Origin: a methanogenic archaeon mixed culture ISO4-G1
GTDB taxonomy: Archaea > Thermoplasmatota > Thermoplasmata > Methanomassiliicoccales > Methanomethylophilaceae
Assembly (NCBI GenBank): GCA_001563305.1
Contig: CP013703.1
Span: forward strand, 186,001 to 250,000
DNA: 64,000 nt
Direction of reading: 5' to 3'
Shown here: in pieces, positions 19,665 through 48,368 of the stretch
How positions within the stretch are numbered: position 1 is the stretch's first letter
How the letters are laid out: each line of letters starts with the position of its first letter
Notes under the pieces: model-generated
Databases searched by the model: none
The model's input: the letters and a program-made list of their open reading frames with translations, nothing else
What the model was told of the DNA's origin: nothing
Translations under genes and position numbers: made by a program

Positions 19665-20462
19665 ATGGACGTACAGGTTGCAATATTCGTAGCGGTTTCT
19701 GTCATCATGGCATACGCTTCTTTCCATGACCTGAGGTCTAGGAAGGTCCCGGACATCTGTCCGAAGCTGATGTTCCTCCTTGCCGCCGTCCAGCTGTTCC
19801 TGGTATACGACTGGCTGCCTGCTGTGGTCGCTGCTTTCGGCTATCTGATGATCTACATGTTCGTGTTCACACGCTAGCTGGAGGGCCGCATCCTGTATGT
19901 CGTTTTGGCCGCGGGCGTCCTGGTGCTGATATTAGCATGGTTCTGCTTCGGGACGGTAGGTCCGCTCATCACGGCGGTTCTGTTCATGCTGTTCCTGTTC
20001 ATGTTCACCGCAGGTTTCATGATCGGCGGAGGGGACGTGAAGGTCCTCATCGGACTCTCCATGCTCTATCCGACCTATCCGGACTTCGGAGGGATGATCT
20101 GGATGAACATCGCGCCGTACGATCTGGTGTTCAACCCTGTTCTGGCGACTATGATCCCGGCATTGCTCCTCACGGTGATCTGGATGATCCCGGTGTGGGC
20201 GATCAACATCAGGACCGGAACGGGAACGATCAGCTCCTGCATGATGGACGTACAGGTTGCGAAGCACTCCTTCGTCTATCCGGCCGTCGGCAGGCGTTAC
20301 ATGTTCCGCAAGGAGGAGGACATCAGGGCCTACTTCAACCTCATGGAGAAATCAGGGGAGAAAATGGTGGCCGTGACGCCGATGATACCGTTCGTGGTGC
20401 CGCTGACGATGGCGTTCCTTCTGACGATGATATTGGGCAGCCCATTCTTCGCCCTCATCTGA
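19665..20462 (+). CDS. A24 prepilin-type peptidase with in-frame TAG (predicted pyrrolysine 71)
   Basis: Read through one TAG at 19875-19877, this frame encodes 265 residues of an A24-family aspartic membrane peptidase (FlaK/PibD/TadV type), which cleaves class III signal peptides of pilin- or archaellin-like proteins. Both catalytic motifs are present, one on each side of the TAG: the first Asp in SFHDLRSRKVPD (about residue 22) and the GxGD motif in MIGGGDVKVL (about residue 125). Hydrophobic segments continue in the same frame on both sides. The codon after TAG continues in frame as LEGRILYVVLAAG. No normal gene in the window ends in TAG, so I predict pyrrolysine insertion rather than decay. 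The 3' end overlaps convergent amrS by eight bases. Confidence 0.8.
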
Positions 20463-47078: not shown

Positions 47079-48368
47079 ATGATTACAGCAATCCGCAACG
47101 CATGGATCGTCACACAGGACGCATCCAGGAGGATCATCCGTGGCGATGTCGTCGTAGACGGCGAGAAGATCGTCTCCGTCGGTCCCGAATACAACGGGAC
47201 GGCCGACAGGGAGATCGACGCGACGGGCGACATAGTCATGCCCGGTATGATCAACACGCACACGCATGTGGCCATGTCGGTCATGAAGGGTGTCGTGGAC
47301 GATCTGACCTTCCCCGATTTCCTCGACAAGGTCTTCAAGATTGATTCCGACAGGACGGATTTCGACCTGGACATCGGAACGAAGATCGGATGCATGGAGA
47401 TGATCCGCAGCGGAACCACCACGTTCATGGACCTCTACTATTCGGAGAACGTGATCGCGAAGGCCACCTAGGCCGCGGGCATCAGGGGTGTGCTGTGCTG
47501 GTGCTGTCTGGACGAGGACAAGACCACCCAGAAGGGGAATCCCGTTCAGAACTGCAAGAACTTCTATTCCAAGTTCAAGAACGAGAGGAAGATCGTCCCC
47601 GGGGTCGGACTGCAGGGAGTGTACGTCTGCAACGAGGAGACCTGTGTGCAGGCCAAGGAGTTCTCCGACGAGGTCGGGGCACCCATGAACTTCCATCTTT
47701 CCGAGACGAGGGGCGAGGTCGCGGACCACAAGAAGAAGACCGGCATGAGGCCGGCCGAGTGGCTGTCCGAGATCGGTGCGCTGTCCCCCAGGGGCGTCGC
47801 GGCCCATTCGGCATGGCTCACCAAGAGGGAGGTCATGCTCATGGGACAGGCAGGCATGTCCATATCGTCATGCCCCGTCTCCAACATGAAGCTGGCCACG
47901 GGAGGCGTCGCACCGGTGCCGGAGTTCATCGAGGCCGGGGTCAACGTCTCGTTCGGTACCGACGGGAATACCACCAACAACACGCTGGACATGTTCGCGG
48001 AGATGAAGTCCCTCGGGCTCCTCCAGAAATCCAGCAGATGGGATCCCGTGGTGTGCGGCGCTCAGCAGCTGCTGGACTTCGCCACCATCAACGGAGCGAA
48101 GGCGGTCGGCATGGCGGACAAGATCGGATCGATCGAGCCTGGGAAGTACGCCGACCTGATAATCCTGGACGGGAAGGCTCCCAACATGAGGCCCCTCCTC
48201 CCGGACAACATGGTCGCCAACATAGTGTACTCCGGGAACGGGCTCAACACCAAGACCGTCATGTGCCAGGGAGACCTGGTCATGCAGGACGGCAACATCC
48301 TGACCCTGGACAAGGACGACATCCTGTCCAAGTCAGAGGACATCTGGAAGCAGCTCTGCATCAGGTGA
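47079..48368 (+). CDS. dadD: DadD/MtaD-type deaminase with in-frame TAG (predicted pyrrolysine 131)
   Basis: Read through TAG at 47469-47471, this encodes a 429-residue amidohydrolase of the 5'-deoxyadenosine / methylthioadenosine / S-adenosylhomocysteine deaminase family. All metal and substrate motifs are intact across the amber codon: GMINTHTHVAMSVMKG (HxH), MNFHLSETRGEVAD (His, Glu), AAHSAWLTKRE, and the Asp in SFGTDGNTTNNTLDMF. The TAG falls in a helix (VIAKAT-TAG-AAGIRGV) where a charged or polar residue would be normal. The enzyme would recycle by-products of SAM-dependent reactions, which are plentiful in this organism. A pseudogene reading is unlikely because both halves are otherwise perfect. 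Confidence 0.85.

Follow-up and report, generated by a model that had tools for sequence, protein, structure and literature searches.

Pyrrolysine (Pyl) is conserved and catalytic in the methylamine methyltransferases MtmB, MtbB and MttB. In-frame TAG codons outside the methyltransferases are also an established feature of Methanomassiliicoccales. Sixteen putative non-methyltransferase Pyl proteins were described in 'Ca. M. alvus', with drift offered as an explanation (PMC4153887), and 46 amber-containing genes were reported in ISO4-H5 (PMC5011839). For ISO4-G1, a methanogen from the rumen, 25 Pyl genes were counted, 9 encoding methylamine methyltransferases and 16 other proteins, in a paper from which the gene list is absent (PMC4824259). 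The A24 prepilin peptidase gene described here resembles the non-methyltransferase cases: its TAG is lineage-specific, relatives carry a sense codon, the genome encodes pyl genes and TAG terminators are very few. It differs from the published sets in the gene itself, since no prepilin peptidase appears in the printed lists, that of ISO4-G1 being unprinted. The peptidase may be among the 25 genes already counted and represents a new or uncredited case. To our knowledge no Pyl has been described in the A24/FlaK family, and a literature search yielded no report of a prepilin peptidase with Pyl. The peptidase shares with MtmB, MtbB and MttB the in-frame amber codon and, as predicted, its decoding by the same tRNA-Pyl and PylS, but its TAG is unique to one species and falls in a loop and not in the active site. 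The earlier note on this DNA stressed that Pyl would here lie outside the methylamine methyltransferases; this stands as a prediction but is less unusual than implied, many such cases having already been published.

The window, i.e. the whole stretch of 64,000 nucleotides that was analysed, carries on its forward strand an A24 (FlaK-like) prepilin peptidase gene at 19665-20462. The frame runs from an ATG at 19665 to a TGA at 20460-20462. With TAG read through it comprises 265 codons, and its sole internal stop is a TAG at codon 71 (19875-19877, forward strand), predicted to encode Pyl. Both hallmark aspartates of A24 peptidases, one at the end of the first helix and the other in a GxGD-type motif, are present and invariant in 28 aligned orthologues. 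The codon of Asp22 (HDLRSRKVPD; 19728-19730, forward strand) precedes the TAG and that of Asp124 (IGGGDVK, GGGD motif; 20034-20036, forward strand) follows it. The earlier description of a complete gene whose catalytic motifs lie on opposite sides of one TAG is thus confirmed.

In GC-rich sequence the frame after the TAG would be open by chance in 0.4% of cases, and one other frame is open too; taken alone, the open frame is weak evidence. Homology on both sides of the TAG is, at the level of sequence comparison, decisive evidence for one gene interrupted by TAG. Residues 1-70 match Peptidase_A24 (PF01478, E 4e-4), and the 194 residues beyond the TAG match the archaeal A24 C-terminus type II profile (PF06847, E 1e-4). 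Both matches are weak and under the curated cut-offs, and they fall on either side of the TAG in the expected domain order. The FlaK_Arch model gives E 1.5e-9, again under its cut-off, and a search with a family profile retrieves FlaK (PDB 3s0x) at E = 2.9e-17. Like FlaK, the window protein belongs to the A24 family, carries two catalytic aspartates and is a multi-helix membrane protein. It is unlike FlaK in its predicted Pyl, and its identity even to the closest congeners is only about 38%. A search of PDB structures with the AlphaFold2 model of the peptidase, built with the TAG read as Lys, returned nothing at E <= 0.001, although the model is confident (mean pLDDT 90.6). The peptidase is single copy in the ISO4-G1 genome, where Pilin_N has no match anywhere. 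A split protein with an internal start was considered and rejected: the next in-frame start is a TTG at 19905, without a well-placed ribosome-binding site by eye, and catalysis needs both halves.

The pyl genes, for which the earlier note proposed a search, are all present, pylT, S, B, C and D forming a complete cluster at G000:C1:657602-661543. In the surrounding region (L007, G000:C1:650000-667000) the order is mtmB, tRNA-Pyl(CUA) (7603-7673 of L007), pylS, pylB, pylC and pylD, and the mtmB directly upstream of the cluster itself includes an in-frame amber codon. PylS, PylB, PylC and PylD all score above the NCBIfam cut-offs. PylS is 100% identical over 273 residues to PDB 8ifj (entry name: Pyrrolysyl-tRNA synthetase PylS) and exceeds its cut-off in 27 of the 31 genomes of the genus.

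TAG usage was examined in a 281-kb sample composed of the 64-kb window, the region around the pyl genes and ten segments of 20 kb, in which genes were called with a codon-usage gene finder under the standard code or with TAG as sense. The standard code yields 245 calls, three of them ending in TAG: mtmB, the window gene at 47079 and an ORF of 100 residues that runs antisense to a gene for an ABC transporter. With TAG as sense there are 238 calls (218 TGA, 20 TAA and no TAG), which limits TAG termination in the sample to less than about 1.3% (rule-of-three 95% bound). This bound is similar to the 1.6% of TAG termination in 'Ca. M. alvus' (PMC4153887). Other in-frame TAGs produced by the TAG-as-sense calls were excluded, most of them lying in low-scoring upstream extensions. 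UAG therefore behaves as a sense codon, since no credible gene in the 281 kb terminates in TAG.

The window gene at 47079-48368 (forward strand, 429 codons) encodes an amidohydrolase/5'-deoxyadenosine-deaminase-like protein which matches two NCBIfam models, metal-dependent hydrolase and 5'-deoxyadenosine deaminase, at scores under their cut-offs. Its in-frame TAG (47469-47471, forward strand) is codon 131, where congeners have Gln, encoded by CAG or CAA, except for three that have Lys or Arg. The protein is up to 93% identical to that of congeners with Gln at this site.

Peptidase matches, most of them full length, occur in 57 of the 60 genomes searched (ISO4-G1 included), and all 30 congeners have an orthologue. 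No copy in the 56 other genomes with a match contains an internal TAG, or indeed an internal stop of any kind. Alignment with relatives, another check put forward by the earlier note, shows a sense codon at site 71, mostly for a basic residue: among 29 relatives, 16 have Arg, 6 have Lys (always AAG) and 7 have another residue. The nearest seven (G030, G018, G003, G024, G012, G008 and G011) have Lys AAG in four cases and Arg in three; AAG is one base change away from TAG. Judged by this alignment, the TAG is not conserved among orthologues and does not appear to mark a conserved or catalytic Pyl site of the MtmB type. Within the species of ISO4-G1, the comparisons cover one strain.

In the predicted structure, residue 71 belongs to a loop (69-74) joining predicted membrane helices 3 (50-68) and 4 (75-95). 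This agrees with the position between hydrophobic segments and outside the active site given in the earlier note. According to the model, the residue is outside the active site and apart from the catalytic aspartates. By helix count, this loop would share its side of the membrane with Asp22 and Asp124.

We regard it as very probable that a lysine codon of the peptidase gene mutated to TAG, is decoded as Pyl and is tolerated without a catalytic role. The UAG in the peptidase mRNA would be translated as Pyl by tRNA-Pyl(CUA) and PylS, yielding a full-length A24 prepilin peptidase. The TAG would have arisen by a single substitution of a basic codon, most simply AAG (Lys), where UAG had already ceased to terminate translation. 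The change would then amount to replacement of Lys by a lysine derivative and not to a knock-out. However, Pyl lacks the charge of Lys, so that the replacement would not be fully conservative. Because the site lies in a short loop and is not among the catalytic aspartates, the TAG most likely represents tolerated drift. The suggestion that it is tolerated rather than functional is further supported by the lack of TAG at this site in every congener and by the Lys or Arg of the relatives. We infer all four elements of this reading: that Pyl is inserted, how efficiently, from which codon the TAG arose and that the enzyme works.

A second component of the putative pilus-like machine also carries a TAG. 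This platform-like gene (T2SSF/TadC-like; L084:5985-7367, about G000:C1:889985-891367) lies downstream of a T2SSE ATPase gene (G000:C1:888288-889985) and encodes a 460-residue membrane protein, the congener homologue of which matches T2SSF. Its TAG is at codon 161. The gene occurs in all 30 congeners without an internal stop, and the TAG site is variable among them (Gln, Gly, Ser, Glu and others). Judging from their protein families, peptidase, platform and ATPase would form one machine, two of whose three conserved parts (peptidase and platform) carry a TAG in ISO4-G1, a pattern spotted post hoc. The T2SSE ATPase gene of two relatives (G018 and G030; L106 and L107) has an in-frame TAG about nine codons past the first ATG, in a stretch (KIASF) resembling the N-terminus of the ISO4-G1 ATPase. 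This TAG is near the N-terminus and a later start codon could bypass it.

An alternative that we consider improbable is that selection on the pilus-like machine has relaxed and that the TAG is an early step of function loss, partly suppressed by chance. Of the 30 peptidase copies in the genus, that of ISO4-G1 diverges most (mean identity 0.29); it also lacks 4 of 20 near-invariant residues, the largest loss in any copy. For the platform gene, which bears a TAG, the terminal branch exceeds those of all relatives (1.43 versus a median of 0.38). As seen in the alignments, this divergence and the lost near-invariant residues favour some relaxation of constraint on the ISO4-G1 peptidase. However, the peptidase is fast-evolving in every congener and its terminal branch in ISO4-G1 (1.22) is close to that of the sister (1.10). 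Genome pairs that are 92-94% identical in the deaminase-like protein are mostly about 37-63% identical in the peptidase, with one pair at 73%. Moreover, the catalytic and other invariant residues beyond the TAG are retained (nine of nine invariant residues in the whole protein, of which six follow the TAG). The portions on either side of the TAG diverge equally strongly; the ratio of post-TAG to pre-TAG identity is 1.30, the third-largest value among 30, and the downstream portion is no less conserved. TAA, TGA and frameshifts are absent from the peptidase, platform and ATPase genes, and the other disruptions that the earlier note proposed to look for were found neither in the ISO4-G1 peptidase nor in the copies of congeners. 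A separate argument, that only TAG and never TAA or TGA interrupts these genes, was set aside as weak: TAG accounts for 47-66% of one-step stop mutations there.

Less probable still is a conditional stop, in which full-length peptidase would be made only when methylamines keep Pyl-tRNA high, the TAG acting as a nutrient-responsive switch for surface structures. With a TAG in two of the three conserved machine components, a shortage of Pyl would indeed shut the machine off. However, site 71 is TAG in no congener, and the almost complete lack of TAG terminators suggests that decoding is constant and efficient. Nor is the RNA structure following the peptidase TAG unusual: a PYLIS-like hairpin or other unusual structure is unsupported there (z = 1.0), and the same test at the other two TAGs gave z = 0.3 and 0.2. 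A single-base sequencing or assembly error, Lys AAG being misread as TAG, is barely credible: AAG differs from TAG by one substitution and occurs in four of the seven nearest relatives, but the published genome combined 454, MiSeq and Sanger data (PMC4824259) and further in-frame TAGs exist in it.

The peptidase read with a tolerated Pyl is a well-supported example of UAG serving gut Methanomassiliicoccales as a normal sense codon, and suggests that genes can drift to Pyl at sites whose chemistry does not require it. Standard gene callers split or miss such TAG-containing genes. More tentatively, assembly of a pilus-like surface structure in ISO4-G1 might depend on Pyl, both peptidase and platform needing UAG decoding; we hold this to be possible but rather doubtful. 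Chance or relaxed constraint explains the TAG in two machine parts as well as a functional link does, since the pattern was recognised in hindsight and rapid evolution is a feature of both genes. Were two machine parts to require Pyl, a cell that lost its pyl genes would forfeit more than growth on methylamines. Such a dependence would be one way in which code expansion gets locked in, a surface structure becoming tied to a methylamine-linked code.

The peptidase gene also contains an exact 17-base repeat in the same frame (19665-19681 and 20244-20260, forward strand), beyond chance expectation. The opening codons of the gene (MDVQVA) thereby occur again at residues 194-199.
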